This document shows positions 29,753-52,594 of a DNA stretch of 64,000 nt, piece by piece. The stretch covers positions 1,736,001 to 1,800,000 of the forward strand of contig NZ_CP088262.1 in NCBI RefSeq assembly GCF_021117365.1. The letters are read 5' to 3'. How positions within the stretch are numbered: the stretch's first letter is position 1; every line of letters starts with the position of its first letter. The notes under the pieces are model-generated. The model was not told the DNA's origin, ran no database searches, and was given only the letters and a program-made list of their open reading frames with translations. This DNA comes from Nocardioides sp. cx-173 (GTDB lineage: Bacteria; Actinomycetota; Actinomycetes; Propionibacteriales; Nocardioidaceae). A program made the translations under genes and the position numbers.

Positions 29753-29758
29753 GCGCAC

Positions 29759-29806: not shown

Positions 29807-29813
29807 CGCGGGC

Positions 29814-36358: not shown

Positions 36359-36435
36359 GGGGCGCGGTCGGAGACGGACCGCCCTCGCGATAGGTTGTGC
36401 TGTCCTTCGACCCCCGCCCGACCGAGGTAGCACTG

Positions 36436-37518
36436 GTGCGTTCCACCCCCGCCACGCGTTGCGACCCCTTGGCCCCCTCGGTACGTGAGGCCCGGGAGGT
36501 CGTGGGGATGTACGGCGACCCGGACACCACGTGGGGCCTCTGTCTCGAGGCGCGACTCACCCGGCCGCAGCATGCGGGCGAGGTGGCCGAGCGGGTGGCG
36601 AGGCTGTGTGCGCGTCGGCCCCACCTCGGGGTCGCGCCCGTCATCACCCGGCATCCCGACTCGGAGTGGGCCGACGCTCGGCGCGACGTCGCTGCCGCGC
36701 CCTACGGGCCGACGTCTCCACTGCTGCGCCTCGCCCTGACCGACGACGGCATGGGGATGTTGATCGGCGCCCACCACGGCGCCGTGGACGGCTTGGGCCT
36801 GCTCGCCGTGGCGGGTGCGGCGCTGGGACGCGAGCTGCGCAGCAGCGCGCGCGGCATCGGCGAGCGCGCCGCGCCGCACGGCTTCATCGGCTCCAGCGTG
36901 CGGCGGCTGGGGGAGGCCCTGGTCGCTCCGCCCGCACGATTCGTGGGTAGCGGTGGAGCGGGTCCCGAGCCGGAGGACCTCAGCGCCGTGACGCGGCCCC
37001 GGGTCGGGCGCGGCACGGCCGACCTCGCCGCGGCGGTCCTCGCCCTGCACGCCGACCTGCCCACGGGCTCGCGGCGTCGCCCGGTGCTCGTGATCGGCGC
37101 GTCGCGCCGGCCCAGTGGGGTCCCCCAGCCGGACCGGCAGACCGCCTATCTCCGGCTGCGCGTGCGCCCTGGCCGGGAGGGAGCGGACCGGTCCATGCTG
37201 GCGCGCACCATCGCGGACCTCCGGCCGGAGCCGGACTTTCCCGAGACCTCCGCGGGGGGAGCCGCGCCGCTGGTCGTCCGCCTGCTCAAGAACCGCCTGG
37301 GCGCGACGGCCATGCTCAGCAACCTGGGCGGCGTCGAGGGTGAGGACCTGGCATCCGTGGCGATGTACCCCGCCCTCAGCGGACCGCGCTCGGTGGCGGT
37401 GGGTCTGGTCTCGACCGGGAGCGCGACGACCCTGACCCTGCGGACCCGCCGGGAGGAGTTCGACGCCGGGGAGCACGCCCGGCTGATCGCCGGGCTGGCC
37501 GACCGGTTCTTCGGCTGA
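36436..37518 (+). CDS. Condensation/PapA-type acyltransferase (HHxxxDG)
   Basis: 360 residues from GTG 36436. The active-site motif HHGAVDG lies near residues 113-119, and a SNLGGVEG segment in the second half matches the second acyltransferase half-domain. This superfamily (PapA, condensation, wax synthase) moves acyl groups onto hydroxyls or amines. In mycobacteria PapA proteins acylate surface lipids and Rv0228 near AftD-linked genes is also an acyltransferase, though of another type. TAGGTT (36391-36396) is a possible -10; GAGGTAG precedes the GTG. Start 36397 is possible but touches the -10. Confidence 0.72.
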   Translation: MRSTPATRCDPLAPSVREAREVVGMYGDPDTTWGLCLEARLTRPQHAGEVAERVARLCARRPHLGVAPVITRHPDSEWADARRDVAAAPYGPTSPLLRLALTDDGMGMLIGAHHGAVDGLGLLAVAGAALGRELRSSARGIGERAAPHGFIGSSVRRLGEALVAPPARFVGSGGAGPEPEDLSAVTRPRVGRGTADLAAAVLALHADLPTGSRRRPVLVIGASRRPSGVPQPDRQTAYLRLRVRPGREGADRSMLARTIADLRPEPDFPETSAGGAAPLVVRLLKNRLGATAMLSNLGGVEGEDLASVAMYPALSGPRSVAVGLVSTGSATTLTLRTRREEFDAGEHARLIAGLADRFFG

Positions 37519-37529
37519 CCTCCGGCCCC

Positions 37530-37559
37530 CAGTACGGCCCAGTGCGGCTCAGTACGGGT
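37530..37559. repeat. 10-bp tandem repeat over a methyltransferase stop codon
   Basis: CAGTACGGCC, CAGTGCGGCT, CAGTACGGGT: three 10-bp units. The minus-strand stop (37549-37551) lies across the second and third units, between two convergent genes. Confidence 0.75.
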
Positions 37560-38331
37560 CGTACGGCGAGTCGTGCCCGACCAGACGAGCCAGGGGGCGC
37601 AGGCGCAGGCGCAGCAGCACCTTGATGCCGACGTTGCGCAGCCACCACGGCAGCTCGCCTACGACCCGCAGCCGGTCCGTGAGCCTAGGACGGCTCGTAC
37701 GGAACAGCGCCATCGACCCTTCGCGCCGGACGTAGGTGAGGTCGCGGGCGAACAGCACCCGGGCCAGGATGCCCAGGGTCACGCCGATGGACGAGTAGGC
37801 GTCGTGCACGAGGATCGCGGCGTCCGGTGGCAGGAAGGCTCGCCAGCGCAGGTCGTCGCTGAAGGTCCAGAAGTCGTGCTTGCCATCGATGTAGAGCAGC
37901 TCGAAGCCCTCGGTCCACCCCGGCCGGGCCTGGGTGGAGTAGTCCTCCACGTGCCGGACCGAGTGCTGCACGCCGGCCTCGGCGAGGTGGGAGAGGAACT
38001 TGGCCTTGGTCGGCGCGCCGCCGAAGAGGCGACCGTCCACGAACGGGTCGATGGCGATGACGGTGCCGCCGGTGGTGCTGGCCACCTGGCCCAGCACCAC
38101 CGTGGACCGGCCCTGGTGGCTGCCGATCTCCAGCATGGTCGCGCCCGGCGCGAGGGCCCGCGCCTCGTCGTACAGCAGCCGGGCCTGGGCTCGGGTGAGC
38201 CACCCGGGGATCCGGTCGGCGACCGCCCACGCGCTGGCGAAGGACTCATCGTCCACGGTCGTGGTCATCGGCTGCCCGCCGTCGCGGACCGGGCCGGAGA
38301 GTCCGTGCTGGGGCGGTGCGTGGGTCCGCAC
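37549..38331 (-). CDS. Class I SAM-dependent methyltransferase (CmcI/Methyltransf_24-like)
   Basis: 260 residues from GTG 38331; ATG 38268 and GTG 38343 are alternatives. SAM motif MLEIGSHQGRSTVVLG, acidic loop VIAIDPFVDG, then LLYIDGKHDFWTFSDDL and ILVHDAYSSIG, as in CmcI-type or polysaccharide O-methyltransferases whose Asp/His residues can bind a metal. The C-terminal 50 residues are basic and hydrophobic, perhaps membrane-associating. TAAGGT (38342-38347) is a likely -10. Divergent from aftD, so it may methylate a glycan or glycolipid of this locus. Confidence 0.8.
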   Translation of the reverse strand: MRTHAPPQHGLSGPVRDGGQPMTTTVDDESFASAWAVADRIPGWLTRAQARLLYDEARALAPGATMLEIGSHQGRSTVVLGQVASTTGGTVIAIDPFVDGRLFGGAPTKAKFLSHLAEAGVQHSVRHVEDYSTQARPGWTEGFELLYIDGKHDFWTFSDDLRWRAFLPPDAAILVHDAYSSIGVTLGILARVLFARDLTYVRREGSMALFRTSRPRLTDRLRVVGELPWWLRNVGIKVLLRLRLRPLARLVGHDSPYDPY

Positions 38332-38409
38332 GTGAGACGACACCTTAGGATCACACGCGGCAGGTTACCGGTCGGTCAACGTCGCCGACGGCACGGAGGG
38401 GAGTCCACC

Positions 38410-41400
38410 ATCGAACTCGCGCGCTCGCACGGGCTGAGGCTCGACGGACTTCGCGGACGCGGACTCGTCTGGTGGGCCGTGCCCCTGACCTGGCTGTGGT
38501 TCCTCGCGATGTCCTTTCTGCAGCGCGTGGGGGCGACGACCTTCGACACCAAGTTCGACCTGACCGCCGACCCCGAGCGGTTCCTGACGCGCAGCCTCTC
38601 GCTGTGGAACCAGAACTCCTCGTTCGGTGAGCTGCAGAACCAGGCCTACGGCTACCTGTTCCCGCAGGGCACCTTCTTCCTCGTCGGGGACTGGCTCGGC
38701 GTGCCCGACTGGACCGTGCAACGGCTCTGGAGCGGCCTGCTGCTCATCGTGGCCTTCGAGGGCTGCCGCCGACTGTTCCGCGCGCTCCGTCCGGAGGCCT
38801 CGCCCTGGGCCGCGTGGTTCGGAGGCGTCGCGTACGCCGTGGCGCCGCGTCTGCTGGGGCTGGCCGGCGTGCTCAGCGCGGAGGTGCTGCCGACCGCGGT
38901 GCTGCCGTGGGTCGTGCTCCCCATCGTGCTGGCCCAGCAGGGCCGGATCGGGCCGCGTGCGGGTGCCCTGTGGTCCGGGGCTGCCGTGCTGCTCCTCGGC
39001 GGCGTCAACGCCGTCGAGAACCTGGCGGCCCTGCCGCTGCCGCTGTTCGTCGTCCTCGCCACGGTGCGCCGCCCCGGAGGGGCCCTCCTGGCTCGCTGGT
39101 GGGTCGGCGCCGTCGTCCTCGCGAGCGCCTGGTGGATGCTGCCGCTGATGGTGCTCGGCCGTTACAGCCCGCCGTTCCTGGACTACATCGAGACCTCGAT
39201 CGCCGTCGTTCGTCCGCTGGGCTGGACGAACGTCACCCGCGGCGCCGACCACTGGCTGTCGTTCTTCTACGTCGGCGGCCAGCCCTGGTGGCCCGGCTCC
39301 TATGCCTTGGCCACCGAGCCGGCGCTGATCGTGGTGACCGCGCTGGTCGCGGCCCTCGGGATGCTCGGGCTGACGCGGCGCGGGATGCCGCTGCGCACCC
39401 CGCTGCTCGCCAGCCTGCTGCTGGGGGCCGTGTGCCTGACCATCTCCCGCGAGGGCGCCCTGGCCTCGCCGCTCCACGCGCAGTTCCAGTACCTGCTGGA
39501 CGGCCCCTTCTCCATGCTCCGCAACGTGCACAAGGTCGATCCGCTGCTGCGGCTGCCGCTGGCGCTGGGGCTCGCGCACGCGACCACCTGGCTCCTCCCC
39601 GCGGCCGGTCGCCGGCTGGCGGCGGCACGCACCCTCACGGCGTCGGGCCTGGTCGTGCTGCTGCTCGTCGCGGCCCACCCGCTGTGGAACGGCGACCTGC
39701 GCAAGCCCGGCTGGACCGAGGTGCCGGACGCGTGGCAGCAGGCGACCGACTACCTCGCCGACGTCGACGGCACGGGCTCCGCCCTGGTGCTGCCGGGAGT
39801 CGGGTTCGGCCAGCAGTGGTGGGGCTGGACCATCGACGAGCCGATGCAGGGACTCGCGACCACCCCGTGGGCGGCGCGGAGCCAGGTCCCGCTGACCCCG
39901 GGCGGCACCATCCGCTTCCTCGACGCGATCCAGGAGCGGATCGCCGATGGTCAGGGCTCGCCGGTGCTCGCCGACGTGCTGGCGCGCGCCGGGATCGAGT
40001 ACGTCGTGGTGCGCCGAGACCTGGACCTGTACTCCAGTGACGCGCCCGACCCGGCCCGGGTCGACCTGGCCCTGAGCCGCAGCCCCGGCCTGACCGAGGT
40101 CGGCTCCTTCGGTGAGTCTCCGACCCAGGACCAGGCGATGGTCTCGGTGCTGCGCGTGGACCGTGCGGTGTCGCGCGTGGAGGCCGTCGCGGTCTCCGAC
40201 GTCGAGACGTTGGCCGGCGGTCCCGAGGACGTGATCAGCGCCGTCGAGGCCGGTGTGCTGGACCCTCGCACCCCCGTCGTGGTGAGGGGGGAGAGGAACT
40301 GGGACGCCCGAGTCCCCGACGTCGTGGCCGACGGCTACCGCAAGCGCGAGCGCGCGTTCGGCCGGCTCGAGGACGCGGTGGGCCAGATCATGACGCGGGG
40401 CGAGGAGTACCGGACCGCTCGGACCGACCACGACTACCCGGGCCCCGAGGCCAGCCAGCGTGTCTACGCGGAGTACGAGGGGCTGGCCTCCGTCGTGGCG
40501 TCCTCCTCGGGCGGCTACTCCGACAACTTCGGCGCCGTGCGCCCGGAGCTCGGGCCCTATGCCGCCGTCGACGGACTCGATGAGACCTTCTGGCAGTCAT
40601 CGCCGTTGACCGACCCGGAGGAGCAGTGGATCGAGGTCCGCTTCGAGGAGCCGGTGTCCTACCCGAGCGTCAGGCTCTCCGTGGGCGTCGACGGCATCAC
40701 CGGGCTGCCCGTGCGCGAGGTCAAGGTGACCGCGGGCAAGCAGGAGGTCACGCGGCAGGTCGATCCCGACGTCGGGCTCGTGGAGATCCCGCTGCGCGGT
40801 GCCTTCGACTCGTTGCGGGTGGAGGTGGCCGGGGCCGCCGGCACCGAGGGGGTCGTCGCGATCCGCGACATCTCCTTCCCCGGACTGGACGTCCAGCGAC
40901 GTCTGGTGGTGCCCGAGGCCGGGGCCGGCGCCGAGACCACCTTCGTGCTGCGCTCGCGGGCGCATCGCCGGGGCTGCATCGACGCCGGCCTGGGCACGAA
41001 CTGCGGGCTGCTCACCAGCCCCCGGCCCTCGGAGGAGGAGTCCGGGATGGTCCGTCAGATCACCGTCGACGAAGGCGGTTCCTGGGACTTCGAGGGCTCC
41101 GTAGTCGCACGGGCCACCCCGGCCGCGCAGCGGCTCATGGAGCCGATCATGGGTCAGGCCCGGGTGCGAGCCTCCTCGACCTACCTGGAGGAGCCCGGCG
41201 CCGGGCCGCAGCTGGCCTTCGACGCCAATCCGGCCACCTTCTGGGCTGCCGCCGCTCGCGACCCGCGGCCCACGCTGCGCCTGCGCTGGGGCCCGAGGCG
41301 CACGGTGGACTCCCTCACCGTCAGCGAGCCTCGAGGAACGGCGGTCGCGCCGACCGGGGGCTGGGTCTCCAGCCCCGGGGAGCCGCGGCAGCGGCTGCGC

Positions 41401-42489
41401 TTCGACGCCGCGGGGCGGGCGGAGTTCGCGCCGATCACCTCTCGGCACCTGCGGATCACCTTCGACCCCTTGCCCGCGGAGATGGACAGCCCGGTGGGCG
41501 TCTCCGAGCTCAGCATCGACGGCCTCGACTCCCTGCGCTACTGGATGGACCGGGACCTGCCCACCGGCTCGATCTGCGGCATCGGGCCGGAGCTGGAGGT
41601 CGACGGCCGCATCTACCCCACGCGGGTCACCGGCACGCTCGGACAGGTGATCGACGGGACCGCCATGCCGCTTGAGTCCTGTGAGGGACCACTCCGCCTG
41701 GCACCCGGGACCCACGAGGTGCGGATCAGCGCCACGGAGCAGTTCGCCCCCACCCAGCTCACGCTGCGTCCCGCCGAGGGCAGGTCGCCCGAGGCGCCGG
41801 AGCGCCGCGACGTGGCGATCGAGTCGTGGGAGTCGAACGAGCGCAGCGTCGAGGTCGGACCCGGCCCCGAGTCTCTCCTCCTGGTCCCGGAGAACGTCAA
41901 CGACGGATGGGTGGCCGAGCTCGACGGTCGCGAGCTCGAGACGGTGCGCGTCGACGGGTGGAAGCAGGGCTACCTGGTGCCGGAGGGCGAGGGCGGCCGC
42001 GTGACCCTGACGTTCGCCCCCAACACCTGGTACCAGGCTGCGCTGGCGCTGGGTGGGCTGCTAGCGCTGCTCGTGGTGGCCGGGGCGGTGCTGGCGACGC
42101 GTCGCGAGCGGGCCCGCGTGGTGCTGGCGCTCGACCCGGTCGACGACCCGTGGGGGTGGTCGCGATGGTGGCGCGCCCTCGGCGTCGTGGTCGCTGTGCT
42201 CGTGGGCGGTCCGGCCCTGGGCCTCGGCTTCCTGATCGGCGTGGCGGGCGCCCGCCGGCTGGTCGACCCCCCGGCGCTGGGGGCCCTGCTCGTCGCCGCA
42301 GGCGGCGTCGCGGCAGGAGTGGTCGCCATCTCCGGGCCCGGACTGCCTCCCACGGTGTGCGATGCCCTCGCCGGCGTCGGTCTGGGGCTGGTCGCCTCCG
42401 CGCTCGCGATCGGTGCCGCGAGCCGTGCGGGCCTGCCCTCCGACGGCGTCGCCGACGGTGCCACGGAGAGGGAGGCCCTCCATGGCTGA
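38410..42489 (+). CDS. aftD: AftD-like alpha-(1->3)-arabinofuranosyltransferase
   Basis: About 1359 residues, close to mycobacterial AftD (1400). N-terminal GT-C membrane domain (about ten helices to residue 440) with the family segment TTFDTKFDLTADPERFL and the downstream NQAYGYLFPQGTFF. Two discoidin/F5-8C-like beta domains follow (about 700-840 and 920-1040), then a beta-rich extracytoplasmic part and four C-terminal helices. AftD adds alpha-1,3 arabinofuranose branches from decaprenyl-phosphoarabinose. The start is unclear: GGAGGGGAG at 38395-38403 points to ATC 38410; GTG 38332 and GTG 38479 are the only nearby standard starts. It overlaps the next gene by 8 bp. Confidence 0.9.
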   Translation: MELARSHGLRLDGLRGRGLVWWAVPLTWLWFLAMSFLQRVGATTFDTKFDLTADPERFLTRSLSLWNQNSSFGELQNQAYGYLFPQGTFFLVGDWLGVPDWTVQRLWSGLLLIVAFEGCRRLFRALRPEASPWAAWFGGVAYAVAPRLLGLAGVLSAEVLPTAVLPWVVLPIVLAQQGRIGPRAGALWSGAAVLLLGGVNAVENLAALPLPLFVVLATVRRPGGALLARWWVGAVVLASAWWMLPLMVLGRYSPPFLDYIETSIAVVRPLGWTNVTRGADHWLSFFYVGGQPWWPGSYALATEPALIVVTALVAALGMLGLTRRGMPLRTPLLASLLLGAVCLTISREGALASPLHAQFQYLLDGPFSMLRNVHKVDPLLRLPLALGLAHATTWLLPAAGRRLAAARTLTASGLVVLLLVAAHPLWNGDLRKPGWTEVPDAWQQATDYLADVDGTGSALVLPGVGFGQQWWGWTIDEPMQGLATTPWAARSQVPLTPGGTIRFLDAIQERIADGQGSPVLADVLARAGIEYVVVRRDLDLYSSDAPDPARVDLALSRSPGLTEVGSFGESPTQDQAMVSVLRVDRAVSRVEAVAVSDVETLAGGPEDVISAVEAGVLDPRTPVVVRGERNWDARVPDVVADGYRKRERAFGRLEDAVGQIMTRGEEYRTARTDHDYPGPEASQRVYAEYEGLASVVASSSGGYSDNFGAVRPELGPYAAVDGLDETFWQSSPLTDPEEQWIEVRFEEPVSYPSVRLSVGVDGITGLPVREVKVTAGKQEVTRQVDPDVGLVEIPLRGAFDSLRVEVAGAAGTEGVVAIRDISFPGLDVQRRLVVPEAGAGAETTFVLRSRAHRRGCIDAGLGTNCGLLTSPRPSEEESGMVRQITVDEGGSWDFEGSVVARATPAAQRLMEPIMGQARVRASSTYLEEPGAGPQLAFDANPATFWAAAARDPRPTLRLRWGPRRTVDSLTVSEPRGTAVAPTGGWVSSPGEPRQRLRFDAAGRAEFAPITSRHLRITFDPLPAEMDSPVGVSELSIDGLDSLRYWMDRDLPTGSICGIGPELEVDGRIYPTRVTGTLGQVIDGTAMPLESCEGPLRLAPGTHEVRISATEQFAPTQLTLRPAEGRSPEAPERRDVAIESWESNERSVEVGPGPESLLLVPENVNDGWVAELDGRELETVRVDGWKQGYLVPEGEGGRVTLTFAPNTWYQAALALGGLLALLVVAGAVLATRRERARVVLALDPVDDPWGWSRWWRALGVVVAVLVGGPALGLGFLIGVAGARRLVDPPALGALLVAAGGVAAGVVAISGPGLPPTVCDALAGVGLGLVASALAIGAASRAGLPSDGVADGATEREALHG

Positions 42490-44299
42490 GAGCAGCTCGA
42501 TCTGGCGCACCTGGGCCGGACCGTGGCGCTCCGCCGCCGGAGCGGTCGCCCTGGTTCTGATCGCGGGACAGGCGGTCTGGCGCGGTGTCCTGCTGGGCCG
42601 AGGGTTCTTCACCCAGGACGACTACCTCATGCTGCGCCTCGGCGCGGAGCCGCTGAGCTGGGGGATGCTGACGCAGGACTACTCGGGGCACTTCTTCCCC
42701 GGCGGCTTCCTCTTCGCCTGGGCGCACGCCCACCACGCGCCGCTCGACTGGGGCGTCGTCGTCGTGGAGATCCTGCTCATGCAGGCGGTGGCCGCGGTGC
42801 TCCTGTGGATGGTCCTGTGCCGGATGCTCCCGGGATCGTGGGCGCGGGTCCCACTCCTGGCCGTCGGCCTGGCCTGCCCGCTCGCCCTCTGGCCGACCCA
42901 GTGGTGGGCGGTCGCGATCCAGTTCCTGCCCATCAGCATCTGCCTGCTGCTGGCGGTGTGGGCGCTGTTGGTGCACCTGCAGGAGGGGCGCCGCTGGGCG
43001 CTGCCGGCGGTGCTCGCCGCCACCGCCGCGGGGCTGCTGTTCCAGGAGCGGGCCGCGCTGTTCCCCGTGGTCCTGGGCCTCATCGCCTGCGCCTTCTCTC
43101 CCGTGTCCGGGCCGCGGGCGATCGTGGCGGCGCTGAGGTCGCGGCTGCTGACCCTGTGGGCCCCGTTGGCGGTGCTGCTCGGGGGCTACCTCGTGCTGCA
43201 CCGCGCGACCGCGCCGATCGAGGCGACCTCCGCGGGCTCGACCGGCGGCGGGCTCGAACTCGTGGGCAACTTCGTGTTCCGCAACGCCGTCCCGGGCTTC
43301 GTCGGCGGCCCCTGGACCCCGACGGTGCTGGGGGACAGCCTGCTGATGCCGCCGACGTACGCGGTGGTCCTCGCCTGGCTGGTGGTGGGCTCGGCGGTGG
43401 TGTGGACCGTGGTCCGCGCCCGGCCCGCTCTCTGGGGCTGGCTGCTGCTGGCGGTCTATGCGCTCATCGACGTGGGACTGCTCTTCGCCGGGCGCTCCAT
43501 GATGGGCGGGCTCTTCGGACTGATCCCGCGCTATGCCGCCGACATGGTGCCGGTGCTGCCCGTCGCCCTCGCGCTGGTGGTCCGCGCAGTGCTGGCCGCA
43601 CCCGCTTCGGTCCCGCGTGCCCGTCGCCTCCGGGTGCCCCGGCCGCCGGGGGCGGTCGTGGCCGTCGGGCTCACGCTCGCCTACGTCGCCTCCGCGGCCG
43701 TCACGACCGCCGCGGTCGCCTCCTACTCCTACAACGACGAGGACCGGCGCTACGTCGAGACGCTGCGTGCGGAGCTGCGCGACCAGCCAGACGCGGTGAT
43801 CTTCGACGGCAGGGCGCCGGACGGAGTCATGATCGGGTGGTTCGCCGACGACGCCCGGGTGTCCACCATGGTCGGCATCGCCCCGGAGAGCCCGGTGTTC
43901 GACCTGCCGAGCCACCGGATGCGGATGGTCGGCTCCGACGGTCGCCTGCGACCGATCGACCTGGTGGCGTCGGCCAGGTCGGAGCCGACCGACGACGAGG
44001 CATGCGGCTACCCCATCACCCGGGACGGCGGTGTGATCCCCTTGGCGGAGCCGATGTCCGGGGAGCGCATGGTCGCCCGCATCAGCTACTACACCGCCGC
44101 CAAGGGGATGCTGCGGGTCGCGGCGTCCGGCGACGAGCAGGCTGTCCCGTTGCGCGGTGGTCTCAACGTCGTGGACCTGGTGGTCCGCGGAGACGTCGAC
44201 GCCCTGGAGATGTCGCTGCTGGACGAGGACGCGGGCGACGAGGTCGGGACGGTGTGCGTGGTGGCCGTGGAGGTGGGCTACCCCGTACCGCGGGACTGA
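42482..44299 (+). CDS. Polytopic membrane protein, GT-C-like, unknown
   Basis: 605 residues with about eleven membrane segments and a soluble C-terminal third (about 415-605). The first external loop has FFTQDDYLML; an Asp pair there is typical of GT-C glycosyltransferases using polyprenyl-phosphate sugars. No named family is recognised. ATG 42482 has GAGGGAGG upstream and overlaps aftD by 8 bp, so it is made together with AftD. Best guess: a second polyprenyl-linked glycosyltransferase or an accessory subunit, inferred. Confidence 0.7.
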   Translation: MAESSSIWRTWAGPWRSAAGAVALVLIAGQAVWRGVLLGRGFFTQDDYLMLRLGAEPLSWGMLTQDYSGHFFPGGFLFAWAHAHHAPLDWGVVVVEILLMQAVAAVLLWMVLCRMLPGSWARVPLLAVGLACPLALWPTQWWAVAIQFLPISICLLLAVWALLVHLQEGRRWALPAVLAATAAGLLFQERAALFPVVLGLIACAFSPVSGPRAIVAALRSRLLTLWAPLAVLLGGYLVLHRATAPIEATSAGSTGGGLELVGNFVFRNAVPGFVGGPWTPTVLGDSLLMPPTYAVVLAWLVVGSAVVWTVVRARPALWGWLLLAVYALIDVGLLFAGRSMMGGLFGLIPRYAADMVPVLPVALALVVRAVLAAPASVPRARRLRVPRPPGAVVAVGLTLAYVASAAVTTAAVASYSYNDEDRRYVETLRAELRDQPDAVIFDGRAPDGVMIGWFADDARVSTMVGIAPESPVFDLPSHRMRMVGSDGRLRPIDLVASARSEPTDDEACGYPITRDGGVIPLAEPMSGERMVARISYYTAAKGMLRVAASGDEQAVPLRGGLNVVDLVVRGDVDALEMSLLDEDAGDEVGTVCVVAVEVGYPVPRD

Positions 44300-44310
44300 G
44301 ACGCGGGCGG

Positions 44311-44349
44311 TGACCGGTCGGTGCGGGCTCGGGGGCCGCCGGCCGGTCA
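44311..44349. terminator. Possible bidirectional hairpin between convergent genes
   Basis: TGACCGG (44311-44317) and CCGGTCA (44343-44349) are complementary with a GC-rich 25-nt loop; the right arm contains the flippase stop codon. Confidence 0.35.
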
Positions 44350-45591: not shown

Positions 45592-45597
45592 CGGAGG

Positions 45598-45603
45598 ACC
45601 TTA
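45598..45603 (-). promoter_or_regulatory. -10 element for leaderless flippase mRNA
   Basis: TAAGGT on the minus strand ends 6 nt before GTG 45591. Confidence 0.5.
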
Positions 45604-45607
45604 GGCC

Positions 45608-47377
45608 ATGTGGCTCCGCGCCGCGGCCGCCGGTGCGGGCGCCGGCCGCCGCGCGTGGTTGGATCGCGCCGTGGCCGGAGACCAGCGACGTGGAGGACGA
45701 GCGGTCCAGGCGGCGCCGGCCCTGTGGTCGCTGCTGCTCGCGGTGCTGATGCTCGGCCCGGCCCTGGGCAGGGGCTTCGTGCTCAGCTACGACATGGTCT
45801 GGGTGCCGGACCTCGCCCTGCGTGCGGACTTCCTCGGCATCGCGAGCGGGCTGCCCCGCGCGGTCCCGAGCGACGCCGTGGTGGCGATCCTGGACGAGGT
45901 GGTGCCTGGCGAGCTGCTGCAGAAGCTGGTGCTGATGGGCGCCCTCGTCGGGGCCGGGATCGGTGCCGCGCGGCTGGTCGGCGAGGTGCCGCTGCCCGCC
46001 CGGCTCATGGCGGTCTCGGTCTACCAGTGGAACCCGCTGGTGGTGGAGCGGCTGCTGATCGGCCACTGGCCGGTGCTCCTGGGCTACGCCGCGCTGCCGT
46101 GGGTGATCCTCGGCGCGCGTCGGTGGCGTGAGACCAGCAGTCTTCCCCCCGGCTTGTGCCTGCTCATGCCCGTCGCCTCACTGAGCGCGAGCGCCGGAGT
46201 GGCCACCGCCCTCGTGCTCGTCCTCTGTGCGGCCACCCGCCGGCCGGCGCACCTGCTCCGGGTCGCCGCGCTCGCCGCCGCGGCGAACGCGCCGTGGCTC
46301 GTGGCGGGGCTCCTGCACGCCGCAAGCGCCACCACCGCCGGGGCCGGCGCACGGGCGTTCGCCCTCGCCGACGAGGGGAGCCTTCCGGGACCGGTCGCCG
46401 CCCTCACGCTGGGGGGGATCTGGAACTCCGAGGTGGTGCCGGACGCCAGGGCCGGGCTGCTGGGCTGGGTCGCCACCGTGCTCCTGGTCCTGCTCGCTGC
46501 GGCCGGCGCACGACGCTGGTGGCGGGGCGCCGATCGGCGCGACGCCGTCGCCCTGCTGGTGATGTGGGGCGTCGGCTTCACCCTGGCCGTGGCGACGTGG
46601 GTGGCGCCGGAGTCGGCCGGCTGGCTCTTCAGCACCGTGCCCGGTGCGGGCCTCTTCCGTGACGGTGCCCGGGTCCTGGTGCTCTGTGCCCCGCTCCTCG
46701 CGATCCTGGTCGCGCACGGCACCGAGCCCGCCCTCCGGCTGGTGGCACCCGAGGCGGGGTCGCGCCTCGTCTTCGCGCCGGTGCTGGTCGCCCTTCCCGT
46801 CCTGGTGCTTCCCGGGGCGCTGTGGGGCGCGGGCGGCAGCCTGGGGGCGGTGGCCTACCCCGAGTCGTACGTCGCGGCCCGCGGCGTCCTCGACCGCGAG
46901 GGCCCGAGCGCCGGTGACCTGGTGAGCCTGCCGCTGTCGAGCTATCGCCAGCCGGCCTGGAACGACGACCGCAAGGTGCTGGACCCCCTGTGGCGTTATC
47001 TGCCCTACGACTATGTCGCCAGCGACGAGCTGGTCGTCGGCGGGACGACGCTGCCGGGGGAGGACCCGCGGGTCGCCGAGGTCGCCGAGGCCCTCGCGCT
47101 CGGCACTCCCGAGGCCAGGGCGAGCGCTCTGGCGGCGGCGGGGATCGGCGTCGTGGTCGTCGACACCACGGCGGTCGGCACCGCCCCGGACGTGGCCGGG
47201 AGGGTCCTCCTCGACGGTGACCTGCGGGTGGTGGCCCTCGAGGACCCCGCCCGACCGGAGCGCCACACCTCGTGGACCATCGCGATGGTGGCCGCGTGGG
47301 CGGGGTTCCTGGGCTGCCTGGCCACGGCCGTGCTGCAGGCGGCTCGCGCACGACGCCGCGACCGGATCGAGCGCTAA
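45608..47377 (+). CDS. Polytopic membrane protein, Rv0226c-like position and size
   Basis: 589 residues from ATG 45608, or 568 from GTG 45671, which is the likelier start because the extra N-terminus is Ala/Arg-rich and overlaps the divergent control region. About twelve membrane segments to residue 420, then a soluble domain and one final helix. Features: SYDMVWVPDLALRADFLG, YQWNPLVVERLLIGHWP, STVPGAGLFRDGARV. No enzyme family is recognised. Size and neighbours (GT4, methyltransferase, DUF3068) match M. tuberculosis Rv0226c, from memory. Confidence 0.7.
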   Translation: MWLRAAAAGAGAGRRAWLDRAVAGDQRRGGRAVQAAPALWSLLLAVLMLGPALGRGFVLSYDMVWVPDLALRADFLGIASGLPRAVPSDAVVAILDEVVPGELLQKLVLMGALVGAGIGAARLVGEVPLPARLMAVSVYQWNPLVVERLLIGHWPVLLGYAALPWVILGARRWRETSSLPPGLCLLMPVASLSASAGVATALVLVLCAATRRPAHLLRVAALAAAANAPWLVAGLLHAASATTAGAGARAFALADEGSLPGPVAALTLGGIWNSEVVPDARAGLLGWVATVLLVLLAAAGARRWWRGADRRDAVALLVMWGVGFTLAVATWVAPESAGWLFSTVPGAGLFRDGARVLVLCAPLLAILVAHGTEPALRLVAPEAGSRLVFAPVLVALPVLVLPGALWGAGGSLGAVAYPESYVAARGVLDREGPSAGDLVSLPLSSYRQPAWNDDRKVLDPLWRYLPYDYVASDELVVGGTTLPGEDPRVAEVAEALALGTPEARASALAAAGIGVVVVDTTAVGTAPDVAGRVLLDGDLRVVALEDPARPERHTSWTIAMVAAWAGFLGCLATAVLQAARARRRDRIER

Positions 47378-47432
47378 CCCGACGTTGGCGCTCGGCGCTG
47401 CTACGGTGTACTCCCTACCAGGAGGGCAACAC

Positions 47433-47588
47433 GTGCTTACCAACAGCTTGGTCACTCTGATCGCGACGATGGTCGTGGGCGGCGCCGTGGGCGCGGCCGC
47501 GATCGTGGGCCTTGTCAGCAGCCAGACGGCCGCACCCGACAAGTCTCCCGCGAGCGTCGAGAAGCCCGTCATCCAGTACGGCGAGTAG
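47433..47588 (+). CDS. DUF2613 small membrane protein
   Basis: 51 residues: one membrane helix (about 5-28, LVTLIATMVVGGAVGAAAIV) and then VSSQTAAPDKSP, the DUF2613 hallmark. In M. tuberculosis the DUF2613 protein Rv0236A is encoded next to AftD (Rv0236c), so finding it 5 kb from aftD here is meaningful. GTG 47433 has AGGAGGG upstream; TACGGT (47402-47407) is a possible -10. Likely an exported or membrane accessory peptide; function unknown. Confidence 0.85.
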   Translation: MLTNSLVTLIATMVVGGAVGAAAIVGLVSSQTAAPDKSPASVEKPVIQYGE

Positions 47589-47598
47589 CCCCCTTCTG

Positions 47599-47633
47599 GA
47601 CGCTCAGGTCCCCTCGTCGGGGTCCTGAGCGTC
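47599..47633. terminator. Bidirectional hairpin between DUF2613 and the GT4 gene
   Basis: GACGCTCAGG pairs with CCTGAGCGTC (10 bp), then one T/T mismatch, then CCCC with GGGG, around a 5-nt loop. The last codons and stop of the GT4 gene are inside the hairpin, so it can end transcription from both sides. Confidence 0.7.
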
Positions 47634-48764
47634 GATGCGTCGTCCCTCGCAGGCCGCCAGGACCACGACGGCGAACGACTCCTGGGCATGCTCCCAGGTG
47701 TAGGAGTGGCTCATCATCAGCGCGCCCGCGCCCAGCCGGTCCCGGAGCTCCTGGTCACAGAGCAGGCGGCGAACGGCCGCGGTGAACTCGTCCTGGTCGG
47801 CCACCAGGAGTCCGGTCATCCCGTCGCGGACCGACTCCCGGGTCCCGCCGGCGGAGGCGTAGGCGACGGTGGGCGTGGCGTGCATCGCCGCCTCGCCGAT
47901 CACCAGTCCCCACCCCTCCTTGATGGAGGGCAGGGCCAGCAGCCACGCCCGGGCGTAGATCTCGTGCTTGGTCAGCTCGTCCACGTGGCCGTGGAAGGTG
48001 ACGATGTCCGAGGCGTCCTTCTCGACGGCGTAGGCCCGCAGGTTGGCCTCCCACCACCCGGACCCCACCGCCTGGAGGCGGATGCCCGGGAAGTCGTGGC
48101 GCAGGGCGACGACGGCGTCGATCGCGTGCTCGACCTGCTTGTGTGGGACGAGCCTGCCCACGACGGCGATCGTCGGGTAGGGCGCCTTGGTCTCGTCGAC
48201 CCGCACGACACGGTCGGTCCCGTTGTGGACGATGGCGATGCGGTCGAGGTCGACCCCGAGCTCCCGCAGCTCGCCCCGGGTCGCGTGCGACACCGCCACG
48301 TACTGGGAGTGCCGGTAGAGCCACGGCGCGAAGCTGCGCTCGATCCACCAGCCCAGCCGCGCCAGTGCGGGTCCGAACAGGACGCCCCACTGCTCGCGAT
48401 GGACATGGTGCACCAGCACGACCACCGGAGCGCGGGTGACGAGGCGCGAGAAGAACGGGAGCCCGTTCTGGACGTCGACGACGACGTCCACGTGACCGAG
48501 CCGGCCCAGGGCCAGCGCCAGCATGCCGCGCAGGTAGACGGTGAGCTTGGAGCCCCGTCGCACGTACTTGACCCCGTCCACGGTCTCGTCGGGCGGGGCG
48601 GCTGCATGGGCGGCGCAGAGGATCGTCACGCGGCAGCCCAGCTCGGCCAGGCCGCCGGCGACCTTCTCGAGGTAGCGCTCGGCCCCACCGCCCTCGGGGT
48701 TGCGGGTGTCGCGCCAGCTGAGGAAGACGACGTGCTTGCCTGCGAGGTCATGGAGCCGGTGCAT
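47604..48764 (-). CDS. GT4 family glycosyltransferase
   Basis: 386 residues, GT-B fold. N-terminal acceptor half: VFLSWRDTRNPEGGGAERYLEKVA, in parts, with the glycine-rich loop. C-terminal donor half: AVVGRLVPHKQVEHAIDAV, PSIKEGWGLVIGEAAMHATPTVAY including the E-x7-E motif EGWGLVIGE, and SVRDGMTGLLV. It transfers a nucleotide-activated sugar in the cytoplasm, acceptor unknown. TAGCGT ends 7 nt before ATG 48764. Divergent from a methyltransferase gene, the Rv0225/Rv0224c pairing seen in mycobacteria. Confidence 0.9.
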   Translation of the reverse strand: MHRLHDLAGKHVVFLSWRDTRNPEGGGAERYLEKVAGGLAELGCRVTILCAAHAAAPPDETVDGVKYVRRGSKLTVYLRGMLALALGRLGHVDVVVDVQNGLPFFSRLVTRAPVVVLVHHVHREQWGVLFGPALARLGWWIERSFAPWLYRHSQYVAVSHATRGELRELGVDLDRIAIVHNGTDRVVRVDETKAPYPTIAVVGRLVPHKQVEHAIDAVVALRHDFPGIRLQAVGSGWWEANLRAYAVEKDASDIVTFHGHVDELTKHEIYARAWLLALPSIKEGWGLVIGEAAMHATPTVAYASAGGTRESVRDGMTGLLVADQDEFTAAVRRLLCDQELRDRLGAGALMMSHSYTWEHAQESFAVVVLAACEGRRIDAQDPDEGT

Positions 48765-48771
48765 CCGCGAC

Positions 48772-48793
48772 ACGCTAGGGCACCCGCTAGTGT
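48772..48793. promoter_or_regulatory. Back-to-back leaderless promoters for GT4 and methyltransferase
   Basis: Minus: TAGCGT (48772-48777), 7 nt before ATG 48764. Plus: TAGTGT (48788-48793), 7 nt before GTG 48801. Only 10 bp separate the two -10 elements, so both genes should share control. Confidence 0.6.
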
Positions 48794-48800
48794 GCCGCGC

Positions 48801-49559
48801 GTGAAGGGCATACCTCGGCGCGCCAGGTCCAGGTCGAGGAGCCGGGCCACGCTCGCGAGGTCGGTCGCGCTGCTGCGGGCGTTCCGCTACGAGCAGCCGG
48901 ACCCGCCTCGCTTCTACACCGCGCTGGCCCGTGACTCGGTGGAGCAGCTGGGGGAGTACGCCGATCTCGACGGCGCGCTCCTGCTCGACGTGGGTGGTGG
49001 GCCCGGCTACTTCCGGGACGCGTTCACCGCCGCCGGAGCGCACTACCTCGCGCTCGACGCCGACGTGGGAGAGCTGTCCGGGCTCGGCGAGCTGCCGCCG
49101 GGCACCCTGCTGGGCAGCGGGATGGCCCTGCCGTTTCGCGACGGCAGCGTCGATGTCTGCTACTCCTCCAACGTCCTGGAGCACGTGAGCGACCCGTGGC
49201 TGATGGCGCAGGAGATGCTGCGGGTCACTCGACCCGGTGGCACGGTGTTCCTCAGCTACACGGTGTGGTTCGGTCCCTGGGGCGGTCACGAGACCGCTCC
49301 CTGGCACTTCCTCGGTGGCCATCGAGCACGCGCGAGGTATCGGCGCACCCATGGCCACGAGCCCAAGAACCGCTACGGCGAGTCGCTGTTCAAGGTCACG
49401 GTCGGTCAGGCGCTGCGCTGGGCCCGGAGCCAGGACCAGGCCGACGTGGTCGAGATCCTGCCCCGCTACAACCCGGCGTGGTCGTGGTGGCTGCTGCGGG
49501 TGCCTCTCGTGCGCGAGGTGGCCACCTGGAATCTCGCCGTCGTCCTGCGCAAGCGCTAG
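48801..49559 (+). CDS. Class I SAM-dependent methyltransferase (Rv0224c-like)
   Basis: 252 residues. SAM motif LLDVGGGPGYFRDAF, acidic loop ALDADVGEL, motif DVCYSSNVLEHVSDP and post-motif RVTRPGGTVFLSYTVWFGPWGGHETAPWHFLGG, read in parts. An Arg-rich N-terminus (about 1-20) precedes the fold. Its divergent pairing with a GT4 gene and following DUF3068 gene matches the mycobacterial Rv0224c-Rv0227c order from memory. Likely methylates a sugar or lipid in the envelope pathway. GTG 48801 is fixed by the -10 element 7 nt upstream. Confidence 0.87.
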   Translation: MKGIPRRARSRSRSRATLARSVALLRAFRYEQPDPPRFYTALARDSVEQLGEYADLDGALLLDVGGGPGYFRDAFTAAGAHYLALDADVGELSGLGELPPGTLLGSGMALPFRDGSVDVCYSSNVLEHVSDPWLMAQEMLRVTRPGGTVFLSYTVWFGPWGGHETAPWHFLGGHRARARYRRTHGHEPKNRYGESLFKVTVGQALRWARSQDQADVVEILPRYNPAWSWWLLRVPLVREVATWNLAVVLRKR

Positions 49560-49604
49560 ACCACCCACCGGCATGCCGGTGCGACACCCCGGCGTGGGGT
49601 GCGC

Positions 49605-49639
49605 TACCGTGCACCGGATTTCATTGTGACGTTCATGAC
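49605..49639 (+). promoter_or_regulatory. Control region of the first DUF3068 gene
   Basis: TACCGT (49605-49610) is a possible -10. TGTGACGTTCATGAC (49625-49639) matches TGTGACCTGCATTAC upstream of the second DUF3068 gene (51653-51667) at 12 of 15 positions and may be a shared operator. Confidence 0.4.
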
Positions 49640-49651
49640 GTGAGGAGACAG

Positions 49652-50539
49652 GTGCGCACCGTAGTTGCTCGAGTGCTGATCGCGCTCGGAGGTTTCTTGC
49701 TGGTGGCGGGCCTGGTGGCCCTCGTCTGGGCGCCGGGGGTCGTCAAGAAGACCCCCCTCGACGTGGACTCGGTGACTCACCTGTCCGGCGTCGGCGGGAA
49801 GGTCGACCTCGCCAGCGGCGAGATCGACTCGGGCCCGGTGCGGGCGTCGAGCATCACCAAGGCCGACACCGACGCCTCCGACGACGACACGGCCGTGTTC
49901 GTGAACCACTCGTGCCTGATGAAGGACGAAGGGGAGGTCCCCGACTGCCTCGACGGCGACGACGAGCGGCTCCTGAGCGCCTCCACCAGCCTGTTCGCCA
50001 CGGACCGCGAGACCGCGCTGTCGGTCGACAACGGCGATTACCTCCCCGAGGACGCCGAGCAGCCCGAGGGGCTGCAGAACAAGTGGCCCTTCGACGCCGA
50101 GAAGAAGGACTACCCCTACTGGGACGGCGTTGCCGGCAAGGCCGTCGACGCGGTCTACGACCGGACCGCGGAGGTGCACGGGCTCGAGACGTACGTCTAC
50201 CACGTGGTCGTGGACGAGGCACCGATCGAGGTGGCCGAGGGCGTCGAGGGTACGTACAGCAGTGACAAGGAGATCTACATCGACCCGGTCACCGGTGCCA
50301 TCATCCACCAGACCGACAATCAGCAGCGCTACATCGACGGAGGCCCGCAGGCCCTGGAGCTCGAGCTCGCCTTCACCGAGGAGCAGCAGAAGACCAACGT
50401 CGACGACGCCAAGAGCAACCAGCGGACGCTGAGCCTGGTGACCGTCTGGGTGCCGATCGTGGGCATCTTCGGCGGGCTGCTGGCGCTGCTCGTCGGTGCG
50501 CTGCTCCTGCGGACCGGGCGCCGCACCGAGACCGCCTAG
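49652..50539 (+). CDS. DUF3068 membrane protein (PgfA/PorA-like), first copy
   Basis: 295 residues: N-terminal helix (about 8-27), a large external domain, C-terminal helix (about 266-286) and short basic tail. Features: TPLDVDSVTHLSG, NKWPFDAEKKDYPYWDG, ETYVYHVVVDEAPIEVAEGVEG (in parts), IYIDPVTGAIIHQTDNQQRY. The mycobacterial relative Rv0227c/PgfA takes part in envelope lipid trafficking and polar growth, and a corynebacterial relative in lipomannan maturation (from memory). GTG 49652 has GAGGAGA upstream. A paralogue lies at 51704. Confidence 0.88.
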   Translation: MRTVVARVLIALGGFLLVAGLVALVWAPGVVKKTPLDVDSVTHLSGVGGKVDLASGEIDSGPVRASSITKADTDASDDDTAVFVNHSCLMKDEGEVPDCLDGDDERLLSASTSLFATDRETALSVDNGDYLPEDAEQPEGLQNKWPFDAEKKDYPYWDGVAGKAVDAVYDRTAEVHGLETYVYHVVVDEAPIEVAEGVEGTYSSDKEIYIDPVTGAIIHQTDNQQRYIDGGPQALELELAFTEEQQKTNVDDAKSNQRTLSLVTVWVPIVGIFGGLLALLVGALLLRTGRRTETA

Positions 50540-50586
50540 CAGCACCTGGCCGGGCCGCTCTTTCGCGGCAAGCCCGGTTGAGCGAA

Positions 50587-50640
50587 CGAGAACCTCCGAG
50601 CGGGAGGTGGCCTCCGGCCACCCCGGCCCGGAGGTTCTCG
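50587..50640. terminator. Long nested hairpin between convergent DUF3068 and DPPR synthase genes
   Basis: Outer 12-bp arms CGAGAACCTCCG (50587-50598) and CGGAGGTTCTCG (50629-50640); inner 7-bp stem GGTGGCC/GGCCACC (50606-50612, 50616-50622). A convincing two-way terminator. Confidence 0.65.
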
Positions 50641-50688
50641 CGTGCTACGCCCCTCCAGGCAGCGCCACCGGCTGCGGCTCGGAGCCGG

Positions 50689-51567
50689 TCAGCCGTAGAT
50701 GGCGAGGACGATCATCGCCGCCCAGATCACCGCGAAGGACTGCAGGACCCGGTCCGAGAGGGCGATCTCCTCGGGCTCGCCTGCCACTCCCGCGTCGACG
50801 TCGACGGCGTAGCGGAGGACGGCCAGCACGAACGGGGCCATCGAGAGCTCGGTCCACGGGATCGGTCCGGGGACGGAGATCTCGAAGGCCCAGAGGCTGT
50901 AGGACATGATCAGGAGCGCCGCGGACGTGGACCACACGAAGCGGAGATAGGTCGCGGAGTACCTGCTGAGCGACGGCCGGGTCACCGAGCCCTCCTCGAC
51001 CTCCAGGTGCAGCTCGGCGTACCTCTTGCCCGCGGCCATGTACAGCGACCCGAACGACGCGATCAGCAGGAACCACTGCGAGAGGTCGATCCCGCAGGCG
51101 ACCCCACCGGCCACGGCCCGCAGCAGGAACCCGAGGGCGATGACGGCGATGTCGATCACCGGCTCGTCCTTCAGCACGAGGGAGTAGGCGACGTTGACCA
51201 GGCAGTAGGAAGCCACCACCACCGCCAGCTGCCACGACAGCGCCAAGGAGAGGCCGGTCGCCACGATCATGAGGAGGACGGCCACCCCCACCGCGATCCG
51301 TGGCGCGAGCCGGCCGGCCGCGATCGGGCGCAGCCGCTTCGTCGGGTGTGCCCGGTCCTCGACCACGTCGAGCACGTCGTTGACGAGGTAGACCGCCGAG
51401 GCCGCGAACGTGAACAGGACCACGGTGAGCAGCGTGCGCACCACCGAGTCGATGTTGTCCAGCTCGCCGGCGAACGCGGGGGCCGCGAGAACGACCAGGT
51501 TCTTGGTCCACTGCCGAGGGCGGACCGCCTGGGCGAGCGCGGGGCCGGCTGCGGGGAGCGAGGTCAC
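50689..51567 (-). CDS. Decaprenyl-phosphate phosphoribosyltransferase (UbiA/DPPR synthase-like)
   Basis: 292 residues, UbiA fold with about nine helices. First Asp-rich motif NDVLDVVEDRAHPTKRLRP and second motif YSLVLKDEPVIDI. It starts with ALAQAVRPRQWTKN, typical of DPPR synthases (Rv3806c) that make decaprenylphosphoryl-phosphoribose, the precursor of the arabinose donor used by AftD. GTG 51567 is preferred because GATAGT ends 6 nt upstream. Its presence beside aftD supports arabinan synthesis in this organism. Confidence 0.88.
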   Translation of the reverse strand: MTSLPAAGPALAQAVRPRQWTKNLVVLAAPAFAGELDNIDSVVRTLLTVVLFTFAASAVYLVNDVLDVVEDRAHPTKRLRPIAAGRLAPRIAVGVAVLLMIVATGLSLALSWQLAVVVASYCLVNVAYSLVLKDEPVIDIAVIALGFLLRAVAGGVACGIDLSQWFLLIASFGSLYMAAGKRYAELHLEVEEGSVTRPSLSRYSATYLRFVWSTSAALLIMSYSLWAFEISVPGPIPWTELSMAPFVLAVLRYAVDVDAGVAGEPEEIALSDRVLQSFAVIWAAMIVLAIYG

Positions 51568-51573
51568 GCGCGG

Positions 51574-51579
51574 ACTATC
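51574..51579 (-). promoter_or_regulatory. -10 element for leaderless DPPR synthase mRNA
   Basis: GATAGT on the minus strand, 6 nt before GTG 51567. Confidence 0.5.
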
Positions 51580-51703
51580 CCACACGCCCCTGCCGCGCGT
51601 CGGGCGGCCCGACCCGCCCCACCCGATCAAACTGAAACACGTTCCAATTGGGTGTGACCTGCATTACTATGCGGCGACTGCATGTCCTTGGGAGGGGAAC
51701 GCT

Positions 51704-52594
51704 GTGCGCAAATTTCTTGCCCCGATTCTGCTCGGTCTCGGTTGTCTGCTCCTGGTGGTGGGGCTCATGTGCCTCGCGTGGGCGCCAGGCCAAGTGAAGA
51801 AGCTGCCACTGGACGTGGTCAGCGTGACCAACCTCAGCGGCACCGTCTCGAAGCAGGGTGCGCCGGAGAGCCCCGTCAAGGTGGAGAGCATCACCAAGGT
51901 GGACTCGAGCGCCTCGGACGACGAGACCGCGGCCTGGGTGAACACCTCGTGCGTGGTGATCGACCGAGACGATCCTCCGAGCTGTGTCGACGGTGACGAC
52001 GAGCGCCTGGTCAGCGCCAGCACCGACGTGTTCGCCTCCGATCGGGTCACCGCGCTGGCCGTCTCGGACTTCGAGGGTCTGCCGGAGGCCACCGAGCACG
52101 AGGGGCTGATCAACAAGTGGCCCTTCGGCGCCGAGAAGAAGGACTACGAGTACTGGGACGGGACCGCCGGGGCGGCCTTCCCGGCCGTCTACGACCGCAC
52201 CGAGGACGTCGAGGGGGTCGAGTGCTACGTCTACCAGGTGGACATCAGCGACGAGGAGATCGAGGTCGCCGAGGGCGTGCCGGGCACCTACGACCAGGCG
52301 GTCGAGATCTGGGTCGAGCCGACCACCGGTGCGATCCTGCAGCAGACGCAGGACCAGCAGCGCTTCCTCGAGGACGGCACCCAGGTGCTGGATCTGAAGA
52401 TCGCGTTCACCGAGGACCAGGTGAAGGAGAGCTCCTCGGACGCCAAGGACAACGTGGCCCGGCTGAACCTCATCACCAAGACGGTGCCGATCGTCGGGCT
52501 CAGTGCCGGCGCGATCCTGATCCTCGCCGGGATCCTGTTGCTCCTGGGCGCCCGCCGCGGCCGGGGCGCCTCGGCGCACACGCGGTCGGCGTGA
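51704..52594 (+). CDS. DUF3068 membrane protein, second copy
   Basis: 296 residues with the same layout as the first copy: N-terminal helix (about 6-25), external domain, C-terminal helix (about 266-284), Arg-rich tail. Shared segments include NKWPFGAEKKDYEYWDG, VAEGVPGTYDQAVEIWVEPTTGAI (in parts) and QQRFLEDG; I judge the two clearly homologous along their length. GTG 51704 has GGGAGGGG upstream. The pair flanks the DPPR synthase gene. The copies may act as a heteromer or on different lipids. Confidence 0.88.
   Translation: MRKFLAPILLGLGCLLLVVGLMCLAWAPGQVKKLPLDVVSVTNLSGTVSKQGAPESPVKVESITKVDSSASDDETAAWVNTSCVVIDRDDPPSCVDGDDERLVSASTDVFASDRVTALAVSDFEGLPEATEHEGLINKWPFGAEKKDYEYWDGTAGAAFPAVYDRTEDVEGVECYVYQVDISDEEIEVAEGVPGTYDQAVEIWVEPTTGAILQQTQDQQRFLEDGTQVLDLKIAFTEDQVKESSSDAKDNVARLNLITKTVPIVGLSAGAILILAGILLLLGARRGRGASAHTRSA

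Follow-up and report, generated by a model that had tools for sequence, protein, structure and literature searches.

The window analysed here, 64,000 nucleotides of the single-contig genome of Nocardioides sp. cx-173 (4.45 Mb, completeness 99.72; NZ_CP088262.1, positions 1,736,001 to 1,800,000), carries between polA and rpsA a cluster of genes for an AftD-family glycosyltransferase, an MmpA-family membrane protein, a GT4 glycosyltransferase, a DPPR synthase (decaprenyl-phosphate phosphoribosyltransferase) and two PgfA/LmcA-family proteins (Table 1). In Corynebacterineae, genes of the AftD, MmpA and PgfA types are read as mycolate and lipoarabinomannan (LAM) machinery. The question that this locus raises is what such genes build in a Nocardioides strain, and an earlier note on this DNA had suggested an arabinan-containing lipoglycan or wall polymer in a mycolate-free host. 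On balance, we slightly favour reading the window as this strain's form of a widespread envelope-glycan locus, with a donor that would be ribofuranose (Ribf) or an epimer such as xylofuranose (Xylf), and not arabinofuranose (Araf) made by DprE enzymes. We infer that a five-carbon sugar other than arabinose may go into a surface glycan of this strain.

A locus shared across Actinomycetes

AftD, MmpA, PF11271 and Emb were counted in a class survey of 148 Actinomycetes genomes with completeness of at least 90; the genome sets used here are samples, and some genes may be missing from the draft genomes among the relatives. AftD was present in 69 of the 148 genomes, MmpA in 57 at E 0.001 (54 over the model cut-off) and PF11271 in 67 and 66 by two counts. 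AftD and MmpA occur together in 54 genomes (Fisher p 1.4e-22, uncorrected for kinship). Taking one match per genome, the two lie on one contig in 51 of these 54, and all 51 pairs are at most 25 kb apart (44 of them at most 10 kb). The genes are conserved together in relatives, and their grouping is not chance.

A scan of genome contigs with an MmpA alignment yielded 300 stretches (284 confirmed), and the best 80, hereafter named loci, were compared gene by gene at 40 bits with the best query per open reading frame (ORF). They come mainly from Nocardioides and Marmoricola and also from Mumia, Aeromicrobium, Kribbella, Amycolatopsis and some others, and some are short contigs. A GT4 enzyme was found in 78 of them, AftD in 76, a flippase in 75, a methyltransferase in the position of MtrP in 68, polA in 63 and a small ORF resembling DUF2613 in 39 (20-bit line). 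PgfA was counted in 33 of the 80, which is a lower bound, because it lies near or past the fetched end in many loci. The usual order is polA, flippase, MmpA, small protein, GT4, methyltransferase, AftD, the GT-C-like membrane protein GTC2 and PgfA, and an Acyl_transf_3 gene stands between AftD and GTC2 in L087 and L105, the two loci tested. The MmpA of the window is 78% identical to that of Nocardioides sp. 1609. The MmpA paper (PMC8698533) states that homologues of MmpA do not occur beyond corynebacteria and mycobacteria; the MmpA matches across the class survey and the contig scan go against this.

The position next to polA, which the earlier note had treated as peculiar, is not special, since polA lies within 49 of the 61 named loci with full flanks; among the 12 without polA in reach, it is just outside the fetched stretch in three (L085, L093 and L096). 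The cluster is real, and it belongs to a probable envelope-glycan locus that is widespread, often beside polA, in the sampled Actinomycetes; the gene families fit the envelope-glycan character that had been assigned to it.

Variants were also seen. Four Amycolatopsis loci (L152, L155, L159 and L164) have the order GTC2-AftD-flippase-MmpA-AcylT-GT4-methyltransferase-PgfA, in which an HHxxxDG acyltransferase is included and polA is not within reach. The genomes G176, G146, G168, G080 and G065 each have two or three genes of the AftD family, and G176 has three within about 12 kb (C17:17358-29153). In L158 (Nocardioides sp. B-3), polA, flippase, MmpA, GT4 and AftD are each broken into several ORFs, which by their look is likely to be sequencing error.

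Donor genes and the predicted sugar

The DPPR synthase of the window keeps the NDxxDxxxD motif and gives 275 bits to structure 8j8j; against the sibling model NF008976 it scores 337 bits, under the cut-off of 474. A strict motif pattern matched nothing in several relatives, and its result was not used. Donor genes were followed in 80 hand-chosen genomes, seven of which (G205-G211) were included on account of their loci, at E 1e-30 for DPPR synthase, 230 bits for DprE1 (a line of our own choice) and E 1e-40 for DprE2; the DprE2, GMC and mycolate-reductase searches scored the top first-look candidates of each genome only. DPPR synthase is present in 25 of the 80 genomes. DprE1 reaches at least 230 bits in 17 of these, and 16 of the 17 have DprE2 as well at E 1e-40 (one under the cut-off). 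DPPR synthase without DprE1 or DprE2 was found in eight genomes, namely the window genome, G185, G205, G206, G207, G209 (Nocardioides sp. Root122) and the two Mumia genomes, G210 and G211. The pairing is not strict, since DprE1 occurs in G043 and G092 with no DPPR synthase at E 1e-30.

Among the 80 named loci, 16 contain DPPR synthase, and it is just outside the fetched stretch in L093 and L096. DprE1 and DprE2 stand alongside it in 11 of the 16, which indicates that the donor genes belong in the locus. N. jensenii and four Aeromicrobium are among those that carry the complete triplet within the locus, and the N. jensenii pair passes the NCBIfam models (DprE1, 552 bits, cut-off 500; DprE2, 373 bits, cut-off 250). 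Arabinose is plausible for relatives that have the triplet in the locus, among them N. jensenii and a number of Aeromicrobium.

The window genome has no DprE1 orthologue (best match 41 bits), no DprE2 at E 1e-40 among the 28 of 64 first-look candidates scored, and no Emb (PF04602), which occurs in 11 of the 148 class genomes, all of family f7. An arabinan based on DprE1, DprE2 and Emb is thus rejected for this genome, and the earlier arabinan suggestion is not supported for it. The host does appear to be mycolate-free, judged by a single marker: the best match to the mycolate reductase NF040690 reaches 179 bits against a cut-off of 380, on which a mycolate host is rejected, and the marker exceeds its cut-off in 7 of the 80 hand-chosen genomes, the seven of family f7. 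Even together, AftD and DPPR synthase do not amount to evidence for arabinan.

Because DprE1 and DprE2 orthologues are missing from the genome, the donor is predicted to be Ribf or an epimer such as Xylf, and not DprE-made Araf. With the DPPR synthase-DprE1-DprE2 pathway to decaprenyl-phospho-arabinose the window has the synthase in common, whereas orthologues of the other two enzymes were not found in its genome. A parallel is offered by the three-component pentofuranose systems of Citrobacter youngae O1/O2, which comprise a DPPR-synthase homologue, a GT-C enzyme with a carbohydrate-binding domain and an SDR-type epimerase. By the published rule (PMC11127046), systems without an epimerase make Ribf and those with a GalE-like SDR make Xylf, and DprE1/E2 homologues are found in candidate Araf systems. 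The synthase and the GT-C enzyme are both present in the window. Unlike those systems, the window is actinobacterial, has AftD and not GT136, carries an additional GMC oxidoreductase, and has a large, polysaccharide-type flippase that occurs with or without DPPR synthase.

Judged by the families, the pathway would run as follows. The cytoplasmic GT4 enzyme would work on a lipid-linked glycan, which the flippase would turn outward. On the outside, the GT-C enzymes AftD (with its carbohydrate-binding domain), GTC2 and perhaps MmpA would add sugars from polyprenyl-phosphate donors. DPPR synthase would convert phosphoribosyl pyrophosphate to decaprenyl-phospho-ribose-phosphate, and an epimer such as xylofuranose might be made by the products of an operon of a GMC oxidoreductase and two extended SDR genes (SDR1 and SDR2). 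The methyl- and acyltransferases would decorate the glycan, and PgfA would carry the lipid-linked product.

With the GMC-SDR operon included, the locus probably begins earlier than the start at 36436 that had been proposed. Both SDRs carry TGxxGxxG and YxxxK; they may act as epimerases that fix the sugar. An orthologue of the GMC protein (78-81%) was found only in the window genome (20 of 45 first-look candidates scored), G185, G206 and G207, 4 of the 80 hand-chosen genomes; ten more have homologues of 33-36%, and that of G210 (34%) lies elsewhere in its genome. Among the best 120 matches listed, a protein of Nocardioides sp. cx-169 is 97% identical, and homologues of 55-65% occur elsewhere, including Crossiella. 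G185, G206 and G207 share the order polA, GMC, SDR1, SDR2, DPPR synthase, acyltransferase and then AftD, with one additional ORF after polA in G185. The window differs in that its DPPR synthase sits between the two PgfA genes.

This operon could also open the way to D-arabinan after all, if GMC and SDR replace DprE1/DprE2 by oxidising and then reducing decaprenyl-phospho-ribose at C2 and AftD transfers Araf as in mycobacteria. The 4-bp overlaps of GMC, SDR1 and SDR2, their intact motifs, their position next to DPPR synthase in three relatives and the retention in the window AftD of the motif common to 113 aligned rows all speak for it. However, Emb is lacking, G205 has a related AftD and a DPPR synthase with no GMC orthologue, and the known SDR epimerase of such systems leads to Xylf (PMC11127046); we regard this outcome as unlikely. 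As a general DprE substitute the GMC-SDR pair is weakened, since G205, G209, G210 and G211 have DPPR synthase but lack DprE1/E2 as well as any orthologue of the window GMC.

It is similarly doubtful, in our estimation, that DPPR synthase and GMC-SDR are passengers in a locus for a hexose-based lipoglycan, with AftD using a hexosyl donor as it maybe does in relatives without DPPR synthase. Such a role would be in keeping with the restriction of DPPR synthase to 25 of the 80 genomes and with the proposal that LmcA, the C. glutamicum relative of PgfA, acts in lipomannan/LAM synthesis (PMC9678360). It would also suit the distribution of DprE1 in Emb-negative genomes, where it was found in only 18 of 58 with AftD and in 17 of 79 without it (Fisher p 0.24), so that an AftD match alone is not a sign of arabinan. 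The presence of DPPR synthase within 16 named loci, and just outside two more, argues against a passenger role.

Several points weigh against the preferred pentofuranose donor other than Araf. The core mostly occurs without DPPR synthase, and AftD might thus draw on a different donor in this genome too, and a DprE replacement of unrelated sequence would restore arabinose. The four genomes with DPPR synthase and without DprE1/E2 or a GMC orthologue show that DPPR synthase can do without the GMC operon, and in the window the synthase is about 14 kb away from that operon. The pentofuranose rule was derived from Gram-negative O-antigens (PMC11127046). The searches of the genome itself for DprE2 and GMC scored 28 of 64 and 20 of 45 first-look candidates. 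A donor flippase and a 5'-phosphatase were not identified, no search having been aimed at a phosphatase or small flippase, and literature searches found no glycan data on any Nocardioides, nor relevant work on arabinan or arabinofuranosyltransferases in this genus.

AftD, GTC2 and MmpA as probable relatives

The window AftD matches the solved protein 6w98 with 516 bits and is a full relative of it. The Asp of the DTKxDL loop (D25), which we take to be catalytic, is present in 99% of the 113 aligned AftD rows, the window included. By hhalign, GTC2 resembles AftD (87% probability, E 3.8e-6), and MmpA resembles the AftD membrane module over 441 columns (98.6%, E 8e-16). A partial homology of MmpA and AftD has been remarked on by Cashmore and colleagues (PMC8698533). 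Close to the start of MmpA there is an Asp that does not vary (Y24 D25), and the stretch aligned with AftD begins after it; this Asp may be the counterpart of that in AftD. A search of MmpA against PDB sequences gave a single chance match.

The equivalog models NF053599 (MmpA) and NF053601 (PgfA) exceed their cut-offs in the window genome, and NF053599 does so in many others, while the mycolate marker is under its cut-off. For both PgfA copies NF053601 is over its cut-off of 160 (170.6 and 169.9 bits), and PgfA2 gives 38.7 bits to the LmcA structure 7n3v. The NCBIfam labels, 'trehalose lipid delivery' for MmpA and 'lipid trafficking' for PgfA, and the Acyl_transf_3 gene in the locus of both relatives tested would fit a locus that exports an acylated trehalose or another acyl-glycolipid, in the way that trehalose mycolates are handled by MmpA and PgfA. 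We consider this very unlikely, in view of the mycolate-reductase match under cut-off, of the GT4 enzyme, AftD and flippase, which point to a glycan, and of the likeness of MmpA to the AftD GT-C module. In genomes that lack the mycolate marker, a name like 'trehalose lipid delivery protein' may be misleading.

Known members of the families are found in the tmaT/mtrP/mmpA/lmcA locus of Corynebacterineae (NCgl2759-2765; Rv0226c, Rv0227c), to which the window genes were matched by family and position. Both have MmpA and PgfA/LmcA, and in that locus a putative glycosyltransferase and a methyltransferase gene lie in the same region with AftD near, as in the window (PMC8698533; PMC7775120). In contrast, the window locus lies beside polA and has a flippase, DPPR synthase and GMC-SDR; its AftD and GTC2 adjoin without Acyl_transf_3 between them, Emb is lacking, and the mycolate marker is under its cut-off. 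MmpA, PgfA and MtrP have been studied as mycolate/LAM factors, and their occurrence in one locus with AftD in marker-negative genomes makes their original role testable in non-pathogens.

A bolder proposal, which we hold only tentatively and think somewhat improbable as a whole, is that GMC-SDR1-SDR2 would be an undescribed lipid-linked pentofuranose epimerase, unrelated to DprE1/DprE2 and acting on decaprenyl-phospho-ribose, in a polA-linked locus in which exchangeable donor cassettes determine the sugar. Mycobacterial MmpA, PgfA, MtrP and AftD would then have been specialised, in the mycolate era, from an older chassis for pentofuranose glycans, and MmpA would be a GT-C glycosyltransferase by origin.

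Mosaic kinship of the locus and genes of the window

The nearest relatives of the strain by polA (94% amino acid identity) and by the second methyltransferase, MT2, at the locus edge (91-94%) are G206 and G207. The flippase, MmpA, GT4 and PgfA1 of the window, however, are only 49-56% identical at the amino acid level to those of G206/G207, as against 76-82% for G205 and 73-81% for G185. By blastn, the block 44350..50530 is colinear with G205 (79.5% nucleotide identity) and G185 (76.5%), and in G206/G207 it appears as rearranged pieces of about 66-71%. Protein trees place MmpA, GT4 and PgfA1 of the window with G205 and G185 (100/100, 100/100 and 100/99, respectively), and the GT4 of G206/G207 groups with G136 (100/100). 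In a quick AftD tree built without bootstrap, the window groups with G185, then G206/G207, then G205, apart from the AftD of most other Nocardioides. In the DPPR synthase tree, the five proteins of the window clade group together (97/99), and that of the window lies outside the other four (98/96). Since the nearest relatives differ from one part of the locus to another, parts of it have moved between lineages, and donor and core modules recombine. O-antigen and capsule-type loci are modular; the window locus likewise combines a conserved core, changing donor genes and discordant kinship, and differs from them in that its type is often polA-anchored in actinobacteria.

Placing the change in the lineage of G206/G207 is no less simple than placing it in that of the window. 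A block exchange in the window as the source of its two PgfA genes was withdrawn, because the trees fit a change in G206/G207 at least as well and G185 shares two PgfA genes and the colinear block; the second PgfA of G185 does not group with PgfA2 of the window. In G185 and G205 (L183 and L085), the place after PgfA1 that DPPR synthase takes in the window holds ORFs which by eye resemble an AAA ATPase and a neighbour.

Table 1. Genes of the locus and its flanks in the window, placed by codon-position composition and family matches; several starts are approximate, as marked, and the last five rows follow MT2 in the order given.
Feature	Position	Strand	Evidence
polA, frequent locus flank	29607..32501	+	PF00476 510 bits
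112-aa ORF between polA and GMC	32501-32839	+	no Pfam match
GMC FAD oxidoreductase, candidate oxidase of lipid-linked pentose	32836..34233	+	PF00732/PF05199; HxxGxxxMG, NPxxT motifs
Extended SDR 1, 4-bp overlap with GMC	34230..35306	+	PF01370 115 bits; TGxxGxxG, YGRSK
Extended SDR 2, 4-bp overlap with SDR1	35303..36328	+	PF01370 126 bits; TGxxGxxG, YGRAK
Putative acyltransferase	36397..37518	+	HHGAVDG motif only
Methyltransf_24 methyltransferase	37549..38343	-	PF13578 61.6 bits; counterpart in L182
AftD-family GT-C glycosyltransferase with F5/8-type C domain	38473..42489 (start approximate)	+	PF11847 659 bits, cut-off 26
GT-C-like membrane protein GTC2	42539..44299 (start approximate)	+	hhalign to AftD; no Pfam match
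Polysaccharide flippase	44347..45591	-	PF13440 22.8 bits, cut-off 23
MmpA-family membrane protein, distant relative of AftD GT-C module	45608..47377	+	NF053599 413 bits, cut-off 210
Small membrane protein, DUF2613-like	47376..47588	+	PF11021 16.2 bits, cut-off 22.1 not reached
GT4 glycosyltransferase	47604..48773 (start approximate)	-	PF00534, PF13439
Methyltransferase, MtrP position	48774..49559 (start approximate)	+	PF08241 60 bits
PgfA/LmcA-family protein 1	49640..50539	+	PF11271 210 bits
DPPR synthase	50689..51630	-	NF008978 384 bits, cut-off 207
PgfA/LmcA-family protein 2	51671..52594	+	PF11271 210 bits; 72-73% aa to G206/G207
Second SAM methyltransferase MT2, locus edge	52602..53435	-	PF08241; 91-94% aa to G206/G207
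APH-family protein			
TSP3-repeat protein	55057-57123	-	7 bacterial TSP3-repeat stretches
rpsA			S1 domains
AraC-type regulator			
coaE			

Family matches bear out the AftD, large membrane protein (MmpA), GT4, DPPR synthase, two DUF3068 (PgfA) and polA/rpsA flanks named in the earlier note, and four other assignments hold in part. The AftD family is right, and the start is not: the first approximately 310 codons of the ORF overlap the Methyltransf_24 gene on the opposite strand, which is absent from the list in the earlier note, so the start is placed at about 38.4-38.5 kb. The acyltransferase, presumably of PapA/condensation type, has the HHxxxDG motif, as do 8 of 11 scored homologous ORFs (the remaining three are short pieces), and no Pfam or PDB sequence match was obtained for it. 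The DUF2613 label stays below the family cut-off, and a similar small ORF recurs in the named loci as counted above. The flippase falls just short of PF13440 and had no PDB sequence match; two orthologues in the same slot of relatives pass PF01943.

Among the minor features, ORFs resembling the Methyltransf_24 gene by look are present in L179 and L180, and L179 also has a 112-aa ORF at the same place between polA and GMC, alike in position and length. The TSP3-repeat protein gives 41 bits to a calcium-binding domain family that also occurs in clostridial binary toxins, and looks like an ordinary repeat protein.

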